From Crossaster papposus (taxonomy: Eukaryota; Echinodermata; Asteroidea; Velatida; Solasteridae), in assembly GCA_037893245.1 (NCBI GenBank), contig JBAIAA010000808.1, forward strand, positions 434,001 through 498,000: 64,000 nucleotides of DNA. The letters run 5' to 3'. Shown piece by piece: positions 227-14,458 of this stretch. The notes beneath the pieces are model-generated. The model was not told the DNA's origin and did no database searches. It worked only from the letters and a program-made list of their open reading frames with translations. Made by a program: the position numbers and the translations under genes. The first letter of the stretch is position 1. Every line of letters starts with the position of its first letter.

Positions 227-422
227 CTATGTTGGATGTTCTTGAAAGGTTTTCTGAACGTTCTGAATAGGTTTTCTGAACGTTCTTAAAAGGTTTTCTA
301 GACGTTCTTAAAAGGTTTTCTGAACGTTCTTAAAAGGTTTTTTGAACGTTTTTAAAAGGTTTTCTAGACGTTCTTAAAAGGTTTTTTAAACGTCTAAAGG
401 TTTTCTAGACGTCCTAAAAAGG
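227..422. repeat. 22-bp AACGTT minisatellite, left block
   Basis: About eight or nine degenerate head-to-tail copies of a ~22-bp unit, roughly AAAGGTTTTCTGAACGTTCTTA. Some copies carry TAGACGTT in place of TGAACGTT. Each unit centres on the palindrome AACGTT or a one-base variant. The block ends where the CACTGC terminal repeat of the next element begins. The same unit resumes at 1056, so the element at 423-1055 either inserted into the minisatellite or carries it as flanking sequence. Confidence 0.8.
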
Positions 423-1260: not shown

Positions 1261-1329
1261 GTTAGCTGGGCTTCTACCTCTGCTGTTCCTTCTGAGCAGG
1301 CTGAGTGAGGTGTAGATCAGACACGTGGA

Positions 1330-4300
1330 TATACTCTATCTCTGTATTCTATCTCTGCTGTTCCTTCTCAGCAGGCTGAGTGAGACACGTCGATATACTC
1401 TATCTCTGTCTTCTACATCTGCTGTTCCTTCTGAGCAGGCTGAGTAAGGTGTAGATCAGACACCTGGATATACTCTATCTCTGTATTCTACATCTGCTGT
1501 TCCTTCTGAGCAGGCTGAATGAGACACGTCGATATACTCTATCTCTGTCTTCTACATCTGCTGTTCCTTCTGAGCAGGCTGAGTGAGGTGTAGATCAGAC
1601 ACGTGGATATACTCTATCTCTGTCTTCTACCTCTGCTGTTCCTTCTGAGCAGGCTGAGTGAGGTGTAGATCAGACACGTCGATATACTCTATCTCTGTCT
1701 TCTATCTCTGATGTTCCTTCTGAGCAGGCTGAGTGAGGTGTAGATCAGACACGTGGATATACTCTATCTCTGTCTTCTACCTCTGCTGTTACTTCTGAGC
1801 AGGCTGAGTGAGACACGTGGATATACTCTATCTCTGTCTTCTACCTCTGCTGTTCCTTCTGAGCAGGCTGAGTGAGGTGTAGATCAGACACGTGGATATA
1901 CTCTATCTCTGTCTTCTACCTCTGCTGTTTCTTCTGAGCAGGCTGAGTGAGGTGTAGATCAGACACGTGGATATACTCTATCTCTGTCTTCTACATCTGC
2001 TGTTCCTTCTGAGCAGGCTGAATGAGACACGTGGATATACTCTATCTCTGTCTTCTACCTCTGCTGTTCCTTTTGAGCAGGCTGACTGAGGTGTAGAACA
2101 GACACGTGGATATACTCTATCTCTGTCTTCTACCTCTGCTGTTCCTTCTGAGCAGGCTGAGTGAGACACGTGGATATACTATATCTCCGTCTTCTACATC
2201 TGCTGTTCCTTCTGAGCAGGCTGAGTGAGGTGTAGATCAGACACGTGGATATACTCTATCTCTGTCTTCTACCTCTGCTGTTCCTTATGAGCAGGCTGAG
2301 TGAGACACGTGGATATACTCTATCTCTGTCTTCTACCTCTGCTGTTCCTACTGAGCAGGCTGAGTGAGGTGTAGATCAGACACGTCGATATACTCTATCT
2401 CTGTCTTCTACCTCTGCTGTTCCTTCTGAGCAGGCTGAGTGAGACACGTGGATATACTCTATCTCTGTCTTCTACCTCTGCTGTTCCTTCTGAGCAGGCT
2501 GAGTGAGGTGTAGATCAGACACGTCGATATACTCTATCTCTGTTTTCTACCTCTGCTGTTCCTTCTGAGCAGGCTGAGTGAGGTGTAGATCAGACACGTG
2601 GATATACTATATCTCTGTCTTCTACCTATGCTGTTCATTCTGAGCAGGCTGAGTGAGACACGTGGATATACTCTATCTCTGTCTTCTACCTATGCTGTTC
2701 CTTCTGAGCAGGCTGAGTGAGGTGTAGATCAGACACGTGGATATACTCTATCTCTGTCTTCTACCTCTGCTGTTCCTTCTGAGCAGGCTGAGTGAGACAT
2801 GTGGATATACTATATCTCCGTCTTCTACCTCTGCTGTTCCTTCTGAGCAGGCTGAGTGAGGTGTAGATCAGACACGTGGATATACTCTATCTCTGTATTC
2901 TATCTCTGCTGTTCCTTCTGAGCAGGCTGAGTGAGACACGTGGATATACTCTATCTCTGTCTTCTACCTCTGCTGTTCCTTCTAAACAGGCTGAGTGAGG
3001 TGTAGATCAGACACGTGGATATACTCTATATATGTCTTCTACCTCTGCTGTTCCTTCTGAGCAGGCTGAGTGAGACACGTGGATATACTCCATCTCTGTA
3101 TTCTACATTTGCTGTTCCTTTTGAGCAGGCTGAGTGAGGTGTAGATCAGACACGTGGATATACTCCATCTCTGTCTTCTACCTCTGCTGTTCCTTCTGAG
3201 CAGGCTGAGTGAGGTGTAGATCAGACACGTGGATATCCTCTATCTCTGTATTCTACCTCTGCTGTTCCTTCTGAGCAGGCTGAGTGAGACACGTGGATAT
3301 AGTCTATCTCTGTCTTCTACCTATGCTGTTCCTTCTGAGCAGGCTAAGTGAGGTGTAGATGAGACACGTCGATATACTCTATCTCTGTCTTCTACATCTG
3401 CTGTTCCTTCTGAGCAGGCTGAGTGAGGTGTAGATCAGACACGTGGATATACTCTATCTCTGTCTTCTACCTCTGCTGTTCCTTCTGAGCAGGCTGAGTG
3501 AGACACGTGGATATACTCTATCTCTGTCTTCTACCTCTGCTGTTCCTTCTGAGCAGGCTGAGTGAGGTGTAGATCAGACACGTCGATATACTCTATCTCT
3601 GTCTTCTATCTCTGATGTTCCTTCTGAGCAGGCTGAGTGAGGTGTAGATCAGACACGTGGATATACTCTATCTCTGTCTTCTACCTCTGCTGTTCCTTCT
3701 GAGCAGGCTGAGTGAGACACGTGGATATACTCTATCTCTGTCTTCTACCTCTGCTGTTCCTTCTGAGCAGGCTGAGTGAGGTGTAGATCAGACACGTCGA
3801 TATACTCTATCTCTGTATTCTATCTCTGCTGTTCCTTCTGAGCAGGCTGAGTGAGACACGTCGATATACTCTATCTCTGTCTTCTACATCTGCTGTTCCT
3901 TCTGAGCAGGCTGAGTAAGGTGTAGATCAGACACCTGGATATACTCTATCTCTGTATTCTACATCTGCTGTTCCTTCTGAGCAGGCTGAATGAGACACGT
4001 CGATATACTCTATCTCTGTCTTCTACATCTGCTGTTCCTTCTGAGCAGGCTGAGTGAGGTGTAGATCAGACACGTGGATATACTCTATCTCTGTCTTCTA
4101 CCTCTGCTGTTCCTTCTGAGCAGGCTGAGTGAGGTGTAGATCAGACACGTCGATATACTCTATCTCTGTCTTCTATCTCTGATGTTACTTCTGAGCAGGC
4201 TGAGTGAGGTGTAGATCAGACACGTGGATATACTCTATCTCTGTCTTCTACCTCTGCTGTTACTTCTGAGCAGGCTGAGTGAGACACGTGGATATACTCT

Positions 4301-6200
4301 ATCTCTGTCTTCTACCTCTGCTGTTCCTTCTGAGCAGGCTGAGTGAGGTGTAGATCAGACACGTGGATATACTCTATCTCTGTCTTCTACCTCTGCTGTT
4401 TCTTCTGAGCAGGCTGAGTGAGGTGTAGATCAGACACGTGGATATACTCTATCTCTGTCTTCTACATCTGCTGTTCCTTCTGAGCAGGCTGAATGAGACA
4501 CGTGGATATACTCTATCTCTGTCTTCTACCTCTGCTGTTCCTTTTGAGCAGGCTGACTGAGGTGTAGAACAGACACGTGGATATACTCTATCTCTGTCTT
4601 CTACCTCTGCTGTTCCTTCTGAGCAGGCTGAGTGAGACACGTGGATATACTATATCTCCGTCTTCTACATCTGCTGTTCCTTCTGAGCAGGCTGAGTGAG
4701 GTGTAGATCAGACACGTGGATATACTCTATCTCTGTCTTCTACCTCTGCTGTTCCTTATGAGCAGGCTGAGTGAGACACGTGGATATACTCTATCTCTGT
4801 CTTCTACCTCTGCTGTTCCTACTGAGCAGGCTGAGTGAGGTGTAGATCAGACACGTCGATATACTCTATCTCTGTCTTCTACCTCTGCTGTTCCTTCTGA
4901 GCAGGCTGAGTGAGACACGTGGATATACTCTATCTCTGTCTTCTACCTCTGCTGTTCCTTCTGAGCAGGCTGAGTGAGGTGTAGATCAGACACGTCGATA
5001 TACTCTATCTCTGTTTTCTACCTCTGCTGTTCCTTCTGAGCAGGCTGAGTGAGGTGTAGATCAGACACGTGGATATACTATATCTCTGTCTTCTACCTAT
5101 GCTGTTCATTCTGAGCAGGCTGAGTGAGACACGTGGATATACTCTATCTCTGTCTTCTACCTATGCTGTTCCTTCTGAGCAGGCTGAGTGAGGTGTAGAT
5201 GAGACATGTCGATATACTCTATCTCTGTCTTCTACCTCTGCTGTTCCTTCTGAGCAGGCTGAGTGAGGTGTAGATCAGACACGTGGATATACTCTATCTC
5301 TGTCTTCTACCTCTGCTGTTCCTTCTGAGCAGGCTGAGTGAGACATGTGGATATACTATATCTCCGTCTTCTACCTCTGCTGTTCCTTCTGAGCAGGCTG
5401 AGTGAGGTGTAGATCAGACACGTGGATATACTCTATATATGTCTTCTACCTCTGCTGTTCCTTCTGAGCAGGCTGAGTGAGACACGTGGATATACTCCAT
5501 CTCTGTATTCTACATCTGCTGTTCCTTTTGAGCAGGCTGAGTGAGGTGTAGATCAGACACGTGGATATACTCCATCTCTGTCTTATACCTCTGCTGTTCC
5601 TTCTGAGCAGGCTGAGTGAGGTGTAGATCAGACACGTGGATATCCTCTATCTCTGTATTCTACCTCTGCTGTTCCTTCTGAGCAGGCTGAGTGAGACACG
5701 TGGATATAGTCTATCTCTGTCTTCTACCTATGCTGTTCCTTCTGAGCAGGCTAAGTGAGGTGTAGATGAGACACGTCGATATACTCTATCTCTGTCTTCT
5801 ACATCTGCTGTTCCTTCTGAGCAGGCTGAGTGAGGTGTAGATCAGACACGTGGATATACTCTATCTCTGTCTTCTACCTCTGCTGTTCCTTCTGAGCAGG
5901 CTGAGTGAGACACGTGGATATACTCTATCTCTATCTTCTACCTCTGCTGTTCCTTCTGAGCAGGCTGAGTGAGGTGTAGATCAGACACGTCGATATACTC
6001 TATCTCTGTCTTCTATCTCTGATGTTCCTTCTGAGCAGGCTGAGTGAGGTGTAGATCAGACACGTGGATATACTCTATCTCTGTCTTCTACCTCTGCTGT
6101 TCCTTCTGAGCAGGCTGAGTGAGACACGTGGATATACTCTATCTCTGTCTTCTACCTCTCCTGTTCCTTCTGAGCAGGCTGAGTGAGGTGTAGATCAGAC
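1330..6200. repeat. Tandem duplication of a ~2.4-2.5-kb satellite block
   Basis: Rare variants line up at a constant offset of 2471 bp from about 1380 to 2700, for example CAGACACCTGG, GTTCATTC and TATATCTCCGTC. The second copy then gains one 75-bp monomer near 5190-5265 (offset 2546). It next lacks a 139-bp dimer, giving offset 2407, which holds at shared variants such as TATAGTCTATC at about 3298 and 5705. This is the pattern expected of unequal exchange in register with the monomers. Confidence 0.8.
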
Positions 6201-7299
6201 ACGTCGATATACTCTATCTCTGTCTTCTACCTCTGCTGTTTCTTCTGAGCAGGCTGAGTGAGGTGTAGATCAGACACGTGGATATACTCTATCTCTGTCT
6301 TCTACATCTGCTGTTCCTTCTGAGCAGGCTGAATGAGACACGTGGATATACTCTATCTCTGTCTTCTACCTCTGCTGTTCCTTTTGAGCAGGCTGACTGA
6401 GGTGTAGAACAGACACGTGGATATACTCTATCTCTGTCTTCTACCTCTGCTGTTCCTTCTGAGCAGGCTGAGTGAGACACGTGGATATACTATATCTCCG
6501 TCGTCTACATCTGCTGTTCCTTCTGAGCAGGCTGAGTGAGGTGTAGATCAGACACGTGGATATACTCTATCTCTGTCTTCTACCTCTGCTGTTCCTTATG
6601 AGCAGGCTGAGTGAGACACGTGGATATACTCTATCTCTGTCTTCTACCTCTGCTGTTCCTACTGAGCAGGCTGAGTGAGGTGTAGATCAGACACGTCGAT
6701 ATACTCTATCTCTGTCTTCTACCTCTGCTGGTCCTTCTGAGCAGGCTGAGTGAGGTGTAGATCAGACACGTGGATATACTCTATCTCTGTCTTCTACATC
6801 TGCTGTTCCTTCTGAGCAGGCTGAATGAGACACGTGGATATACTCTATCTCTGTCTTCTACCTCTGCTGTTCCTTTTGAGCAGGCTGACTGAGGTGTAGA
6901 ACAGACACGTGGATATACTCTATCTCTGTCTTCTACATCTGCTGTTCCTTCTGAGCAGGCTGAGTGAGACACGTGGATATACTATATCTCCGTCTTCTAC
7001 CTCTGCTGTTCCTTCTGAGCAGGCTGAGTGAGGTGTAGATCAGACACGTGGATATACTCTATCTCTGTATTATATCTCTGCTGTTCCTTCTGAGCAGGCT
7101 GAGTGAGACACGTGGATATACTCTATCTCTGTCTTCTACCTCTGCTGTTCCTTCTAAACAGGCTGAGTGAGGTGTAGATCAGACACGTGGATATACTCTA
7201 TATCTGTCTTCTACCTCTGCTGTTCCTTCTGAGCATGCTGAGTGAGGTGTAGATCAGACACGTGGATATACTCTATATATGTCTTCTACCTCTGCTGTT

Positions 7300-7303
7300 C
7301 CTT
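7300..7303. other. Target site duplication CCTT, left copy
   Basis: CCTT immediately precedes the left terminal repeat and CCTT immediately follows the right one (14455-14458). The uninterrupted satellite copy at 16355-16365 reads GTTCCTTCTGA with a single CCTT, so these four bases were duplicated on insertion. The next base is C on both sides (the first element base on the left, 14459 on the right), so a 5-bp CCTTC duplication cannot be excluded. Confidence 0.8.
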
Positions 7304-7318
7304 CACGGCTGTTTCAGC
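7304..7318 (+). repeat. Left terminal inverted repeat of the RAG1-like transposon
   Basis: CACGGCTGTTTCAGC, a perfect inverted match to 14440-14454; identity stops at base 16. The repeat overlaps a local hairpin, ACGGCTG-TTT-CAGCCGT (7305-7321), so the terminal motif appears in both orientations at this end. The CAC start fits the Transib/RAG class of ends. Confidence 0.9.
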
Positions 7319-8237
7319 CGTATTCATTGTGCGTATTAAAAGTATTGCCCATTCGTGGTTTGTGCTTTATCTACTCCAATTACGCACGTGACATCAGCAA
7401 ACATGGCAGCGTCCGAGGGCCCCAAAGTCGATGTAAACTGTACACAAACAAATCCACAAATTGAACAGTTGGTTTTTTTTTCTTTACTGTAAACGCATTA
7501 TTTTCATAAAGTAATTAAAGTTTGATGATATAAATGTATTAAACATGTGTTTATATGTGTCTTTAACGTGAATTTTGGTCACTTGTTTGAGTTTTTTTAG
7601 TGACGTTCTTTTAAGTCATCGTCGCAAAAGTAACTTATACGAGTAAAGATTCCCTCTTCTCCTCGGTGATTTTGAAGAAATAGAAGCCTTTACCTTAAAA
7701 TTCAAGGGGAGATTTAACTAAAAACGACCTTAGTATTTCTGGGCCCTAATCTATTCTTACAAAATCAGACGATAAATTTCGTCAAGTTCGCGTTTTTTGT
7801 TCGCTTTTTTACTACGCAACTTCGTGGGTTCACTGCTTATGCACTCACTTTACGTGTATAGCGCGGGGTACCAATACATGTAAACATGTATACGCGCTCA
7901 CACAGCCCGTGTGTATTGGGCGCTGGGAAGGTCTGATGCGCTTTGTGCTCTGATTGGATAGATTTTGTGACTGGGGAAATGGAGGTCACAAGTTCCGCGG
8001 CTCAGCTACGCTGCGTCCAGTTCGAAAGGTCATGGTATACAAACCAGAATGCAGTGCATTTCCTTTACATAAATATGTGAAGCGCTATAGTCCTTCCGAG
8101 CGCATGTATTATGGGTGGCGGGCACGAGCGGACGCTGTGGCGCGCTATACAAAATACACTTTCACTCATACAGCAAATGAAAACACAGCAGACTGTATAA
8201 TTCGTGTCTTTTAAAATGAAATTTTATTTCTATCATC
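7319..8237. promoter_or_regulatory. 5' non-coding region of the transposon
   Basis: About 920 bp between the left terminal repeat and the transposase start codon, presumably holding its promoter and 5' UTR (inference). A perfect palindrome, ATACATGT-AA-ACATGTAT, lies at 7874-7891. It is nested in a looser inverted pair (CCAATACA at 7871, TGTATTGG at 7912). A CCAAT-type element (TGATTGG) is near 7951. No convincing TATA box or initiator could be fixed. An 86-codon frame at 7954-8214 starts only at TTG, matches nothing I know, and is not called. Confidence 0.4.
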
Positions 8238-9257
8238 ATGAGTTTTAAATTTCACCAGGCATCATTAGAAAAAATATGTAGAATTTGCACACACAGATTA
8301 AATCCAGGAACTAAACTTTCAACAAGGAAGCCACTCTTTTGTGAGAATGTAAACAAGGACATTTTCAATGTTTTTGGAGTAAGTACTTGGGAAGACACGC
8401 CTGATCAGCATCCACAAAAACTGTGTGAGAAATGCGCCAGAAAAATTAGACACTACACTTTTGGAGAAAGAACCTACAGCGTGAGTAGCCTAAAACTACA
8501 CCAAACTGTGCAAAGTGAATGGCCAAAACATTCTCGGACAGGTAAATGCTTTGCTTGCACATTAGTACCTCAACAGACCAGGGGAGGAGGATCACATAAA
8601 CCACTCTCTGGAAGACAAGTAAAGAGTACTGACAAATGTGAAGTTCTTTGCTTTGAAGGAAAGGAGGACAACATTTTTACTCAGTTGCCTTCACAAACAT
8701 GTGTAGTGCCTCCAAGCATTGACATTCTTTGTCACCGAGGAGAAGAATTTGTGTTTATTTGTGTAATATGCCAATGCATTATCAGCCGACCAGCAGTGCA
8801 GACACCCTGCGAGCATATATTTTGTGCAACATGTTTGAGTAAATGTTTCCAGTATGCATCGTGTCATAAAATTAACTGTCCTACATGTAACCAAACTTTG
8901 GATTTACAGGAGGTTACAAAAATTCCCCGTATCTTGAATGTACAGCTTGACAACCTGACAGTGATTTGCAATGACTGTACAAAAATTGGCAAACTGTCCC
9001 AAGTTGTTGAGCATGACTGTTCCCCAAACACCAACAGGGTCCCGAACCCTAAAGTAACATTAATTGAAGCACCCATCCTTTCGCAAGATGACAAAGCGGC
9101 ACAGATAACAAATGCAGCAAGGATCCTTAAGGAGCTGGCATCTCAACACACTTATGGCACACAAATACCCCCTGAAGTTGAGGATGCTACAGATAAATGG
9201 ATGTGCCACAAATTAAAACAAGATAAATCTCTTGTAACAATCAAAACAGGTGGTCGG
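8238..9257 (+). other. RAG1L: RAG1L exon 1: zinc-binding N terminus and RING finger
   Basis: Codes for residues 1-340. It has the layout of the vertebrate RAG1 N-terminal region: CRIC, then HPQKLCEKC, then WPKH followed by CFAC, then a RING finger and a C/H finger. It ends at GGR in phase 0 with donor GTAAGT. The frame stays open for 50 codons into the intron, so an unspliced product would be a stand-alone 390-residue N-terminal protein. Confidence 0.88.
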
Positions 9258-12200
9258 GTAAGTCCAAATTTAATATTATTAGACTTAAAACTTGCTTTCT
9301 TCAAAAATTGTTCATTCAACATAAAACGAACAGTACAGTACATGTGCTTTCAGTTCTATATTTCAAAATTTTTAAACAATTTAACATGTGGCGTATTAAA
9401 CTCACTTTAATTGTTTTTAAGACAATTTTGTGAAATCAAATCACATATACTGAAGTAAAATGAGATATGGGATCAGGGATACCGGGTGTTTTTTAAGGTT
9501 GGGGTGTTGAAATATTAGGATGGCATAATTTCTCTTTTCAGATGTTTCTCCGGTCAGTATATAGTCTACATCCTTTCTTCAAATTCAGTTTTTGCATGAC
9601 TCACTAAGTTTTGGTTTTGCTTGTTCTCGTATTTGTTTGAAGTGAGTGCATTCAGTATCATTATTTTTTTTGATTAATTTTCCTAGCGGACCTATATCCA
9701 ACGAGTTGTGATGTCCAAACGTTGTGATGGCAAACCTTCCAAGAGTCTCGCAACTTCAGGAATGACGACAGAGAAATCCATGGCAATGATGCGTGACTGC
9801 AGCCTTGCCTGGAATCAGCTTCGGAAACTCAGAAGGTAACTGCAGAAGAAAGAAATGAAAAAAAAACCCACATTTCAATTTAAATTTCTATTTTTTACAT
9901 ACATACAATTTGTTAATTTACAACAGGTACATGAGTGGAACAAACATTCCTTCAGAACGGGCCATGCGCAAAACTCAGAAGATGCTACTCAAGGATAATC
10001 TAGCTGGTGAAAGGATCAAGCTCTTTTTCAACTCAAATAAAGCTGATGGGATCAATGGCATGCAGCTGAAGGAAACACCATTTGTGTATGTCAAGGATAT
10101 CGGAGCAATGATTCTGGACTACCTGGACCGCCATGAACAGTAAGATAATGCATCTCCTTCTAACTGTATTGTATTGTATTGTATTGTATTGATGTGTTGT
10201 AGAGAAAAGTACACCTAAATTAACCCAAGTCACGTGTCTAAGAATGTTTTTCCCTCCTCTATAGGCAAGGTACCCTGACATGGCACAATGGTGTCATACC
10301 AGAGACCGAAATATGGATTAAGGTGGGAGGAGACAAGGGAGGAAACTCCTTTAAAATGGATTTCCAAATCGTAAATGTAGTCCATCCCAACTCCATAAAA
10401 AACACTGTTGTGTTTTCCTGCTTTGAAGCCACTGACTCGATGGCCAACATACGAAGAACACTTCTCCCGATATTTGAGCAGCTTTCAGTGCTGTCCACAC
10501 TGAAGTGGTGGTAAGTTTTGGGGTCCTTAATCCCCATTATCTTTTGCATTTTATTTTAGATTGAGAGACAAAACAAGCAGGGGTGATTTTAATGTTCATA
10601 TTCAATCTGGATGAAACATTTGTCAAGCCTAAAAGCAACTCCATCAACTGAGGGGTTTATGACAATGATTCAAATGTTCTATTTCAGTGGAAGGTCCCTA
10701 CGTGTGTTCTTCTTTGGAGATTACGAACTGCTGAACAAGGTGTATGGAATATGTGGGTGTAATGGTAAGGCTTTCAACTCACCTTGTGGATCTTCCTTTA
10801 TTCCTGTTCAGCGAAAACAGCCTTTACGTTTTACTAGAAGGGTTGTTGGTGATGTATTCCATGCACGATCTAAAAAGGGAGAGTTTATTTAATTTAGACC
10901 TTATTATAAGGTTTGACAAGACTAGACCCTGTATGTAGTCAACTATGCTTTTAAAAAGTTTAACCTGCTTCTTTTTTGCACTTCAGCTCGATACTGCTGT
11001 GTTTATTGCTTGGCAAGCAAGAAGACAATGCAACTGCCCATCACAGACCGGGGTCCGAGCTTGCCTCGTAATCTTCAAAACATAAGAGAGCATCACCAGC
11101 TATTCCTTAATGATGGAGCACGCCCATCACGGGCAAAAGATGTTTCATACAGCATTGTGAACCCCTCCTTGATACCCATTGAGACTGATCATGTAAGTGA
11201 AACTTAATGCTGCTAATATGTCCCACATGTGCACGCGTGCCCCACATGTGCACGCGTGCCCACATGTGCACGCGTGCCCACATGTGCACGCGTGCCCACA
11301 TGTGCACGCGTGCCCACATGTGCACGCGTGCCCACATGTGCACGCGTGCCCACATGTGCACGCGTGCCCACATGTGCACGCGTGCCCACATGTGCACGCG
11401 TGCCCACATGTGCACGCGTGCCCACATGTGCACGCGTGCCCACATGTGCACGCGTGCCCACATGTGCACGCGTGCCCACATGTGCACGCGTGCCCACATG
11501 TGCACGCGTGCCCACATGTGCACGCGTGCCCACATGTGCTCGCGTGCCCACATGTGCACGCGTGTCCACATGTATGCTTGAGAATGATGTAAAAACCAAA
11601 TGGTTTTAACCTTTTTTTTTAGGTCGTAATTCCTACCTTGCATATTTCACTGGGCGTGTACAAAAAGCTGTTTGATCTGCTTGAGAGGGCCTGTCATAAT
11701 TTGGATGTCAAATTGCTCCAGCTGCGTGTCGAGTCTCAAGATCAGGAAGGGACAAACTTCGATGACCAGATAGCTGCGGAAATACAAAGGCAAGACAAGA
11801 TTCAGCAAGATCTCACTGAAAAGCGGTCTGCTCTGGAACAAGCAGAGGAAGAACTGCCCCTTCACGTCCTGAATAACGACTGCAAGTGTGACAAGATAGA
11901 TGAAGCTTTTCGTGATACAGCTTCATCTGTTTTTCAACTACGAGCAGACATCAGAGAATTGGTAATTACATGTACAATAAATATTTTCAGTAATTCTGTG
12001 ACAGTCATTTCACTGTGCATGGAGTAACACTTCATACAAATCCATTTGTTTTTGCAACGACAATTTCAGGAACTAGACGCTCTGTCAGCAAAGCTTACCT
12101 ACGCAACTGGTCCCATTGCTAGTGCCCTTGACAAAGTCCTCCATGAACACAAAGTCCAGCGACAGGCATACCATGGAAAAGCTTTCGTGGGTAATCATGT

Positions 12201-12890
12201 CCACAAATGCTGCCAGGTAAGAGTATAAAAGTACATGCGTTTAAAGATCAAAAAGAAAAGATGCATGGCTAAAAATGTATTATTATATTGCAGCCAAAGC
12301 TTATCGACGCCCTCACCAAAGTTCCCCAAGAAGAGCTTGAAAGACAGCTGACAGACGATATGCCCCTTGCTGCTCAAGAACGCCTCAGACGGCAGGCATT
12401 TCAGCATCGTGCAAATTTTAGAGAAGTTTTTATGAAATTTGCAGATGTCCATAAGGGCATTAACCATGCCCTTGCTTTGACTGACGAGGATGTCCTCCAC
12501 GTAGGTAAGGGCACAAACACTTACAACTTAATGTGTGATGTAACCCTACTTGTACAACCAAACAAACAAAAAACAAAACAAAGTTACCTATCAATTTTCA
12601 TACCCACAGATGTAAGTATTCGGGAGCTCCTGAGGACCTATCGTCAGCTTTTCCCGGGGGAAAACATTACTCCCAAGCTCCACCTGCTTGAAGATCATGC
12701 TGTGGATCAGCTACGGCGTTTCCGTGTTGGGCTTGGCCTGCTCAATGAACAGGGGGGAGAACTCATTCATGCAGAATTTAACAGAATCGGCCGAGTGGTT
12801 CAAGGAGTACGAGATGACTTGGACAGGCTCTGGGCAGTAATGCGACGACATCATGTCTCGACCTGTCCTGAAGTATCAGGAAGTGTTTGA
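8238..12890 (+). CDS. RAG1L: RAG1-like transposase, ten exons, 962 aa
   Basis: DDE transposase of the RAG1/Transib class, expected to act in the nucleus to cut at the element's CAC ends and reinsert it. Exons: 8238-9257, 9687-9835, 9927-10139, 10265-10510, 10688-10764, 10987-11192, 11623-11961, 12070-12216, 12294-12504, 12610-12890. All introns are GT-AG, and the phases join into one open frame. N terminus: CxxC pairs at 14/17, 63/66 and 104/107; a RING finger (C175-x2-C178-x12-C191-x-H193-x2-C196-x2-C199, C214-x2-C217); then C244/C247...H259/C261. Core: GGR at 338-340, catalytic D484, D554 and E920, zinc ligands C573/C576 and H894/H899. The D554-C573 spacing (19) equals that of vertebrate RAG1 D708-C727. 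The D484-D554 gap is shorter than in RAG1 (70 against 108). A charged probable coiled coil (about 684-714) follows the CxxC region. Vertebrate RAG1 is about 1,040 residues. The start is the first ATG of exon 1, 13 codons before the first zinc ligand. Confidence 0.9.
9687..9835 (+). other. RAG1L: RAG1L exon 2: start of the catalytic core
   Basis: Too short to stand out as an open frame, but recovered by splicing. The acceptor TTTTCCTAG at 9686 and donor AAG/GTAACT at 9836 give 49 codons plus two bases with no stop. It encodes residues 341-389, ending in AWNQLRKLRR. That segment resembles the helical DNA-binding part of the RAG1 core that leads into the next exon. Confidence 0.82.
9927..10139 (+). 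other. RAG1L: RAG1L exon 3
   Basis: Residues 390-460, from YMSGTNIPSERAMRKTQKML to the DYLDRHE segment. The first part parallels the RAG1 core segment that ends in an alternating Ala/Lys helix before the catalytic domain. The acceptor is CAACAG/G and the donor ACA/GTAAGA. The junction is in phase 2 and makes a Gln codon with exon 4. Confidence 0.83.
10166..10190. repeat. (GTATT)5 microsatellite in intron 3
   Basis: Five exact GTATT copies just after the exon 3 donor. They cause no coding change. Confidence 0.9.
10265..10510 (+). other. RAG1L: RAG1L exon 4: first catalytic aspartate
   Basis: Residues 461-542. The GGDKGG motif places the first catalytic Asp at residue 484 (codon at 10332-10334), at the end of a hydrophobic strand (EIWIKV), as RAG1 D600 is placed. 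Downstream, FEATDSMANIRRTLLPIFEQ matches the RAG1 segment with an ADESD motif and the following helix. Confidence 0.88.
10688..10764 (+). other. RAG1L: RAG1L exon 5: second catalytic aspartate
   Basis: Residues 543-568. LRVFFFGDYELLNKVYG carries the second catalytic Asp (residue 554, codon 10719-10721). It corresponds to RAG1 D708, which likewise follows a Phe-rich beta strand and precedes a Leu/Val helix. It is bounded by TTTCAG and GTAAGG. Confidence 0.88.
10987..11192 (+). other. RAG1L: RAG1L exon 6: CxxC zinc ligands
   Basis: Residues 569-637. YCCVYCLASKK supplies C573 and C576, equivalent to RAG1 C727 and C730. The exon continues through a basic region, with REHHQLFLNDGARPS parallel to the RAG1 stretch after its CTLCDAT motif. 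The donor CAT/GTAAGT is in phase 0, and the following intron carries the 18-bp minisatellite. Confidence 0.87.
11224..11573. repeat. 18-bp minisatellite in RAG1L intron 6
   Basis: Nineteen head-to-tail copies of CACATGTGCACGCGTGCC plus a partial one. The first copy has one extra C, and the last ones show single substitutions (CTCGCG, GTGTCC). Each unit is alternating purine-pyrimidine over 17 of 18 bases and contains two palindromes, CACATGTG and GCACGCGTGC. Because 18 is a multiple of three and the unit has no stop, several frames on both strands stay open. The resulting HVHACP, CTRAHM and HMWARV repeats are artefacts, lying wholly inside an intron. Confidence 0.95.
11623..11961 (+). other. 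RAG1L: RAG1L exon 7: core segment plus probable coiled coil
   Basis: Residues 638-750. It begins with LHISLGVYKKLFDLLERA, parallel to the RAG1 stretch around its LHCDIGN motif. It then departs from vertebrate RAG1 with a charged helix of Glu, Gln, Lys and Leu (about 684-714) that looks like a coiled coil, followed by a CKC motif (724-726). The donor TTG/GTAATT is weaker than the others. Confidence 0.8.
12070..12216 (+). other. RAG1L: RAG1L exon 8
   Basis: Residues 751-799. It ends in QAYHGKAFVGNHVHKCCQ. That segment lines up with the RAG1 core stretch around MNGNFARKLM and carries several His residues. Acceptor TTTCAG, donor CAG/GTAAGA, both in phase 0. Confidence 0.82.
12294..12504 (+). other. 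RAG1L: RAG1L exon 9
   Basis: Residues 800-869, a helix-rich segment rich in Leu, Glu and Arg with no single hallmark residue. The following intron (12505-12609, 105 bp) has no stop and is a multiple of three, so its retention would add 35 residues without breaking the frame. The GTAAGG donor and CCCACAG acceptor favour removal. Confidence 0.8.
12610..12890 (+). other. RAG1L: RAG1L exon 10: HxxxxH and catalytic glutamate
   Basis: Residues 870-962 and the TGA stop. LHLLEDHA gives H894-x4-H899, equivalent to RAG1 H937 and H942. NEQGGELIHAEFN gives the catalytic Glu at 920, 21 residues after the second His (20 in RAG1, H942 to E962). The C terminus ends shortly after RRHHV, without the longer vertebrate tail. 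Confidence 0.88.
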
Positions 12891-12904
12891 AAGGAAATCA
12901 TAAA

Positions 12905-12910
12905 AATAAA
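12905..12910 (+). terminator. Likely polyadenylation signal of RAG1L
   Basis: AATAAA 15 bases after the TGA stop. A second AATAAA lies at 13146-13151. Either could be used; the first would give a very short 3' UTR. Confidence 0.55.
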
Positions 12911-13383
12911 GAAGGGCTTTCAAATTAATTGGGGGACAATCTCCATCTTTCACTCTGCGTCACTGACAGTTTGGGTGCTGTACTGTATATGTACTCGCCC
13001 AGACTGAATAGCAGTTTTAGCACACATCAATCATTAATTATGTAATATTTCAGTAATATTTGTTAGCTCTGTCTATGTTAGTGTTTACTCAGGGTGCAGC
13101 TTCAGAATTTAAGTACAACAAGTAGGCCTAGGCCTAAATCGTGTAAATAAACGTGTTAATAATGTTATTGTTAAATTTATCAATCATTGTGCGTTGTTTT
13201 CTTTCGTTTATATTCTTCTGCTCAATTCAATTAATATACACAACTCACCAGCATGAAAAGTTGTATGGCCCCGCAGTTAGAGTAAGAGTACAATCTGTGC
13301 TATTGCTAATGTAAATGCGGCATACGTTCATCAGTAAAAAAAAACCAGGTATTTTTTTCACTTATTTTATGGAAATCATTCGG

Positions 13384-13803
13384 TCTCAAACTCAGCATGC
13401 AGGTTAATTTATAGTGCATCGATATTTCGCTAAAATTAGGACTTTTTCCGTCAGGTGTAATTTGTCTCTAAATCTGCGTTATAAATTTTCAAACAAATTC
13501 GCAATAAACGCAAAACAATAAGGCGGATCAAGTCTGCGCAGGCGCGGCGTGCGAAGCTCGTCGCACCGAACAACAGAGGCGCACGCTGTTGTTCGGTGTG
13601 ACGAACTGTGTACGCCTGCGCAAACTTGATCTGTCATATTGTTTTACGTTTATTGCGATTTTTTTTTGAAACTTCATAATAATTTATAAATTATAACGCA
13701 GATTTAAAGACAAATTACACCAGACGGAACCACCGAAAAGTCATAATTTTAGCGAAATATCGATGCGCTATAATAAACGAACTTGCATCCCAAATTTGAA
13801 AAA
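13384..13803. mobile_element. Nested foldback/MITE-like inverted repeat
   Basis: Two imperfect arms of about 190-200 bp face each other around a centre near 13581. Matching landmarks are GCATCGATATTTCGC (about 13417) with GCGAAATATCGATGC (about 13752), GCAATAAACG (13501) with CGTTTATTGCG (about 13647), and CGAACAACAG (13568) with CTGTTGTTCG (13586). The arms differ by scattered substitutions and small indels. The outer borders are approximate and no target duplication was found. It is non-coding and sits wholly inside the RAG1-like element. Confidence 0.78.
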
Positions 13804-14269
13804 TAGGGGCCCTATATAATACTGACATAATAAACTGAACTTACCGTGAAAACAATTTAGATTTGCCGACCATGCCGACGGCAAATATGGCGATTGCACG
13901 CACGCTACGTATTGTACATATACGGCGCGCATGCATGTACATGGGGGTGTACGTACGTGTTTGAATCCTTCGTTTTTCAGCAGCTTTTTGCTACGGAAAT
14001 AACAATGGCCCACAGAAGCTATGATTTTTAAGATGTTTAGTAAGCTTTGCAACGTCGACTAGTGAACAGTTTGTTAATAAATCCACCGGAGACAACGATT
14101 TATTTGCCATTTTATGAAGGGCCAAAAACGAACCCGCGCAATCTAACGGTTTTCGTTCGAATCGCTGGTACGTTCGCAAGACCACTCAAACTCGTATTTC
14201 CTCAAACACACGACACCAGCCAAGAAGTTTATAAATAATTCATGAGTTTCTTTGTTAAATGTCTTATTT

Positions 14270-14381
14270 GCATGACTCATGCCCGCCTCAGAAGGTCACG
14301 TGACCCTTGTTTTGGTGCTCTTGTTATTTAAAAACAAGACGCGCAAACAAAGTGTAATCACGCCCATTGAATGTGACGTCA
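14270..14381. promoter_or_regulatory. Palindrome cluster near the right end (AP-1, E-box and CRE-like)
   Basis: Within 112 bp there are three palindromic sites: GCATGACTCATGC (14270-14282, containing an AP-1 TGACTCA core), GGTCACGTGACC (14294-14305, containing an E-box CACGTG) and TGACGTCA (14374-14381, a full CRE consensus). The matches to bZIP and bHLH consensus sites are seen directly; any regulatory role, or role as transposase-binding sites, is inference. Confidence 0.4.
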
Positions 14382-14396
14382 TAAAACCTAAATTTC

Positions 14397-14454
14397 CGGC
14401 TGTTCATAGATGACCAACAGAGGGCGCACTTTTCACAACGCTGAAACAGCCGTG
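14397..14454. repeat. Inverted copy of the terminal motif at the right end
   Basis: CGGCTGTT at 14397-14404 is the inverse of AACAGCCG at 14445-14452 inside the right terminal repeat, giving an 8-bp stem with a 40-bp loop. The left end likewise carries its terminal motif in both orientations, but with only a 3-bp loop, so the two ends are asymmetric. Confidence 0.6.
14440..14454 (-). repeat. Right terminal inverted repeat of the RAG1-like transposon
   Basis: GCTGAAACAGCCGTG, the exact complement of the left 15 bp. The satellite resumes at the next base with CCTTCTGAGCAGG. Confidence 0.9.
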
Positions 14455-14458
14455 CCTT
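14455..14458. other. Target site duplication CCTT, right copy
   Basis: Matches 7300-7303. See the left copy for the ambiguity between 4 and 5 bp. Confidence 0.8.

Follow-up and report, generated by a model that had tools for sequence, protein, structure and literature searches.

A complete, recently mobile Chapaev-group transposon with a RAG1-related N-terminus in satellite DNA of Crossaster papposus

Chapaev transposons are recognized by target duplications of generally 3–4 bp, CAC/GTG ends, and the motifs C(2)C, LH, and H(4)H (PMC4079192), and the Pfam family DUF1280 corresponds to their transposases (PMC3985635). In two Chapaev subgroups, a Chapa domain followed by a RING has been reported and linked to RAG1 (Kapitonov and Koonin 2015, PMC4411706). 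N-terminal zinc fingers and a RING are also carried by the RAG1-like (RAG1L) proteins of amphioxus and molluscs (PMC7204232). Two views of the N-terminus of RAG1 itself, the enzyme responsible for cleaving antibody genes, have been put forward: old common inheritance with Chapaev (PMC4411706) and late fusion of the transposon Transib with N-RAG-TP (PMC8355894), a mobile element of Aplysia whose protein resembles the RAG1 N-terminus (PMC8355894, PMC2996935). We analyzed a 64,000-nt stretch of the genome of Crossaster papposus (assembly GCA_037893245.1, contig JBAIAA010000808.1, positions 434,001 to 498,000), hereafter the window, in which an initial annotation had placed a complete 7.15-kb RAG1-like transposon inside a satellite array. 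The element belongs to the known Chapaev group of DNA transposons, is complete and recently mobile, and is not a RAG1 or Transib element. Judging from its sequence, it is very probably an autonomous cut-and-paste transposon in whose protein a RAG1-like zinc domain at the N-terminus and a RING precede a D-D-E core.

The protein of the element matched DUF1280 (PF06918) with an expectation value (E) of 1.2e-19 and a score of 71 bits, the cut-off being 25. The same domain was detected in all five members of alignment A1, which comprises the window protein and the proteins of four relatives from the same genome (L030, L034, L035, and L036). All of the Chapaev hallmarks listed above were present, namely CAC/GTG terminal inverted repeats (TIRs), a 4-bp duplication, and the C(2)C, LH (L643-H644, invariant in the five A1 proteins), and H(4)H motifs. 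Likened by description, the Chapaev elements of lancelet and sea anemone with Chapa and RING (PMC4411706) have a DUF1280 core, CAC..GTG ends, a 4-bp duplication, and a single protein in common with the present element, as well as a zinc N-terminus followed by a RING; they differ from it in that the gene has ten exons here and the host many such families. We take the N-terminal zinc domain of the element to be the Chapa domain of that literature. The layout of Chapa plus RING has been known for Chapaev since 2015, and the element adds one more example. Chapaev3 elements (Merrow, Garfield, Conan) share CAC ends, C(2)C, LH, and H(4)H with it but are described with 3-bp TWA duplications and a transposase gene of at most two exons; the transposase of the silkworm element has 556 aa (PMC4079192). 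A literature search by subject, not by host name, returned no publication that we recognized as covering this element family.

Both borders of the element, which is 7,151 bp long and lies on the forward strand, were placed exactly where the initial annotation had put them (Table 1). Its description of perfect inverted CAC ends with a target duplication was borne out as well: the TIRs (CACGGCTGTTTCAGC) are 15 bp long and perfect, and, given CAC/GTG ends, the sole flanking duplication among lengths of 1–11 bp was CCTT (4 bp). GTGCG is additionally common to both ends at element positions 26–30. No further occurrence of the TIR with two or fewer mismatches was found in the window. Satellite DNA lies on both flanks (1271–7304 and 14475–64000), with monomers of 75 and 64 bp; these account for 425 and 261, respectively, of the 694 spacings measured in the array on the right. 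Rejoining the flanks with a single CCTT restored a satellite 28-mer with 333 occurrences in the window, whereas rejoining them with a 5-bp duplication gave a 28-mer with no occurrence. A 5-bp target, CCTTC, was rejected, since the element would then begin with ACGG and terminate with CCGTG, which breaks the symmetry of its ends. In related elements, read by eye, a second conserved block lies inward of CACGGCTGTTTCA; the right end had AAAAGTRCGCCCTCTGTTG in three of four, and at the left end all four had a G+C-rich word with TAAAAG or TAAAG after it. These conserved blocks look like a two-box recognition site. A by-eye reading of the ends of this element and its relatives gave no sign of a 12/23 rule.

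The relation of the protein to RAG1 is significant, at the level of profile comparison, for the N-terminal zinc domain and the RING. A profile of the five A1 families matched the RAG1 N-terminal domain 21wb_A over profile positions 5–108 (E 5.2e-5). For the RING, the best solved match of this profile was the RAG1 chain 3jbw_A (E 6.1e-8), presumably zebrafish RAG1. The RINGs of BRCA1 and TRIM scored close behind RAG1 in that search, and the RING alone therefore carries little information. The Pfam family RAG1_imp_bd was matched singly by two of the five A1 members (best 0.0013), the window protein not being one of them. Taken alone, the window N-terminus had RAG1 as its best hit at an E of only 0.12, and its alignment score against RAG1 was reached by 1 of 5000 shuffles, or by 29 of 5000 with Cys and His fixed. 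The combination of zinc domain and RING, a criterion for RAG1 and the RAG-like transposons (RAGL), is thus present in the element's protein; it also occurs in some Chapaev and is therefore not diagnostic of RAG1/RAGL. A predicted structure of exon 1 alone had a mean pLDDT of 35 and was not used.

Could the element nevertheless be a strict RAG1-like transposon (RAGL/ProtoRAG or Transib), perhaps after loss of RAG2L? We consider this highly improbable, even though the CAC ends would suit it, and the order of zinc domain, RING, D-D-E core, C(2)C, and H(4)H is common to ProtoRAG/RAGL, vertebrate RAG1, and the window protein. The core itself speaks against it. A single-sequence search of residues 341–962 against a library of solved chains had none of the RAG1, RAG1L, and Transib chains among its matches up to E 10, and PF12940 was likewise missing from the Pfam matches of the protein up to that E. 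As controls, the mouse RAG1 core scored 1.8e-250 on PF12940 and, queried against the same library, recovered the RAG1L chain 6b40 (which we take to be ProtoRAG) at 4.1e-68 and the transposase 6pqn (which we take to be Transib) at 0.0031. In pairwise alignment of the core to the mouse RAG1 core, 132 of 500 shuffles scored as high or higher, and the five-family core profile stayed within the shuffles (score reached by 14 of 40). A 14-sequence core profile, built from the five A1 families and nine distant intronless open reading frames (ORFs), rated the mouse RAG1 core above 299 of 300 shuffles with HMMER (199 gave a score) and above 290 of 300 with hhalign (score reached by none of 40 in a smaller run). 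This signal corresponds to an E of about 120 in the solved-chain library; it is a weak hint, compatible with the published view that the cores are remotely related, and no match. The score of a stretch around the second D and C(2)C, picked after the motifs had been seen, was reached by 2 of 2000 shuffles, and that of the C-terminal stretch showed no excess (1130 of 2000). The core as RAG1 or Transib was rejected on the single-sequence search, the shuffled pairwise alignment, and the profile comparisons.

The initial annotation had proposed comparing the 962-residue product with RAG1, Transib, and ProtoRAG and had named a lack of significant similarity of the core to RAG1 or Transib as evidence against its reading; no significant similarity of the core to any of the three was found. 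What remains of its RAG1-like protein is the N-terminal zinc domain and the RING, but the core is DUF1280. It had read the motif order by eye. In the core, D-D-E with C(2)C and H(4)H follow the order of RAG1, which is also that of the whole CACTA-Mirage-Chapaev-Transib clade. C(2)C and H(3-4)H are common to EnSpm, Mirage, Chapaev, Transib, and RAG1 (PMC12730594), and the order is therefore not specific to RAG1.

The ends, too, differ from those of RAG transposons. The duplications are 4 bp and not 5 bp, and after CAC the TIR departs from the protostome RAGL consensus, lacking its AAA at positions 8–10 (PMC7204232). Transib has CAC ends, a single transposase, and the core motif order in common with the present element but is described without a RING and with typically 5-bp duplications (PMC4411706), against a RING, 4 bp, and no 6pqn match here. 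No RAG2L was found downstream of the gene: 12891–14454 contains no ORF of at least 120 aa, and 10 of its 15 open stretches of at least 45 aa (both strands) had no Pfam match to RAG2, kelch, or PHD. Those ten gave few weak Pfam hits, unrelated to RAG2; a gene of very short exons is possible. In the host genome, PF12940 and PF03089 had no match, with the controls also silent, and the absence of RAG1L and RAG2L there is not demonstrated.

The Chapaev element is present in several copies. Its left 600 bp were found at seven places of the 1.02-Gb host genome and its right 600 bp at six places plus one fragment; the element stands at six further places, 96–98% identical over the main segments. All six copies with both ends are flanked by 4-bp target duplications (CCTT, GCCG, CTAT, CCTA, AGGC, and TGCT). 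The reading frame is intact in four of the seven copies (the window, L015, L016, and L017), L020 has one frame shift, and L018 and L019 are broken. Compared with L015, L016, and L017, the coding sequence differs by 0.52–0.76%, the other parts by 0.6–2.1% (introns 1.1–2.1%), and the minisatellite by 4–14%. Seven copies, four of them with a whole frame, indicate that the family moved recently. Protein-changing changes per site are fewer than silent ones, as would be expected of a domesticated host gene with retained transposon ends; this explanation is hardly credible given near-identical copies at separate places, each with its own duplication where both ends are present, and an insertion within satellite DNA.

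The ten exons give 962 residues and a stop without lesion, and all nine introns are GT-AG, in agreement with the spliced gene proposed initially. Each exon is open in one frame and has stops in both other frames. Codon-position composition of the whole coding sequence was far from uniform (chi2 76, p 2e-14); the signal was not significant for exons 2, 4, 5, and 6 taken singly. Genes of relatives were modelled by requiring AG, GT, and the same phase at most 45 bases from the place predicted by the protein match. Full ten-exon models without a stop were obtained for four of the six host-genome relatives tried, those included in A1, at protein identities of 47–57% (L031 gave nine exons and L033 seven). 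Of the 72 internal exon borders in these full models, 66 fell exactly at the position expected from the alignment. A by-eye artefact of exons joined by chance might be suspected where splicing was read by eye, Pfam covers part of the protein, and four exons are singly without signal, but the recurrence of these exons and borders in relatives and the closed alternative frames leave it practically no credibility.

Some points weigh against the Chapaev reading. The seventh copy (C553) showed no right end in the search. The ratio of protein-changing to silent changes per site (pN/pS) was 0.25–0.34 against L015, L016, and L017, from only 15–22 changes per pair. Residues 538–962 lie beyond the Pfam match and are supported by same-genome relatives, not RNA, and the RING of this copy scored below the Pfam curated cut-offs. 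Membership of the Chapaev group is based on the Pfam model and published hallmarks, the named Chapaev families having been compared by description.

We propose a mechanism in which the CAC ends are most likely bound by one protein, whose RNase H-like D-D-E core would excise the element; insertion by a 4-bp staggered cut would have left the CCTT duplication at this site. D-D-E strand transfer is known at the level of the family. Candidate catalytic residues are D484, D554, and E916 or E920, and one protein would be enough, with no partner needed. By analogy with RAG1, the RING probably acts as a ubiquitin ligase that tunes the protein level.

To judge from at least 104 exon-level DUF1280 matches in its genome, the host carries a large, diverse Chapaev population. 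From 104 DUF1280 places (eight short loci), we retrieved the six same-family copies and 16 relatives. Seven relatives bear introns, of which six were modelled; L032, which matched only residues 390–541, was left out. A search for paired ends, allowing duplications of 3 to 8 bp, found a pair at 6 of 21 loci and none at the other 15, including L034, L036, and the nine intronless ones. Duplications of 4 bp also occur in three related families: L030 (AGTG), L033 (GCCT), and L035 (GATG).

N-RAG-TP, which reportedly goes back to Panchin and Moroz in 2008, shares with the present element both mobility and a protein resembling the RAG1 N-terminus, and we infer that it is a Chapaev element as well. Profile comparison significantly links the N-terminal domain of the element described here to its RAG1 counterpart, and the element matters mainly as a clean example of a possible source of the front part of RAG1. 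It is possible, if doubtful, that a transposase of this host is active to this day, functions without RAG2, and displays every part of the RAG1 layout, from the N-terminal zinc domain and the RING to the D-D-E core with C(2)C and H(4)H. In that case, the RAG1 layout as a whole would predate the RAG/Transib branch, and the RAG1 N-terminus would have been inherited together with the core and not gained by fusing two transposons. On its own, the element leaves the accepted account of how V(D)J recombination arose unchanged. With its recent mobility, four intact copies, and numerous sister families in one genome, it provides working material for testing such a transposase in the absence of RAG2.

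Table 1. Features of the element and its surroundings (window positions).
Feature	Position	Strand	Remark
Whole Chapaev-type transposon	7304..14454	+	matching ends; six other copies in host genome
Left terminal inverted repeat, CACGGCTGTTTCAGC	7304..7318	+	15 bp, perfect
Right terminal inverted repeat	14440..14454	-	
Left target-site duplication CCTT	7300..7303	none	
Right target-site duplication CCTT	14455..14458	none	
Transposase gene, 10 exons, 962 aa	8238..12890	+	
Exons 1–5	8238-9257, 9687-9835, 9927-10139, 10265-10510, 10688-10764	+	
Exons 6–10	10987-11192, 11623-11961, 12070-12216, 12294-12504, 12610-12890	+	
N-terminal zinc domain, residues 6-107	8253..8558	+	related to RAG1 N-terminal domain
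RING finger, residues 172-233	8751..8936	+	
DUF1280 / Chapaev transposase domain, residues 363-537	9753..10493	+	exons 2-4
Proposed first catalytic Asp, D484 in GGDKGG	10332..10334	+	invariant in A1; putative role
Proposed second catalytic Asp, D554 in FGDYE	10719..10721	+	invariant in A1; putative role
Proposed catalytic Glu, E916 or E920 in NEQGGE	12747..12761	+	both invariant in A1; putative role
C(2)C motif, C573-C576	10998..11009	+	invariant in A1
H(4)H motif, H894-H899	12681..12698	+	invariant in A1
18-bp minisatellite, intron 6	11222..11573	none	most variable part between copies
414-bp imperfect palindrome	13386..13799	none	3' non-coding part of element

A distant intronless DUF1280 lineage (L021–L029) is present in the same genome, with ORFs of 940–986 aa. 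The two members scanned, L021 and L023, have an N-terminal Pfam FAM60A match above cut-off (3.4e-9 and 1.1e-6) and no RING match up to E 0.1. A literature search combining FAM60A/SINHCAF with transposon found no publication; a link between the FAM60A host gene and Chapaev would merit attention. Six loci in viral contigs that had appeared to be relatives of exon 4 were rejected as chance matches around one octapeptide. Exons 10 and 1 had no relatives in viral contigs, and exon 4 had none in the genome contigs collection.

The minisatellite of intron 6 consists of about 19.5 copies of the unit CCCACATGTGCACGCGTG and is rich in self-complementary words. The 414-bp palindrome also occurs in three other aligned copies and is partly deleted in copy L017; viewed as a nested foldback insertion, it has the arms, with no clear duplication by eye. 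To the left of the satellite, short arrays of a 22-bp unit (GTTCTTAAAAGGTTTTCTGAAC) lie at window positions 238–422 and 1059–1119.

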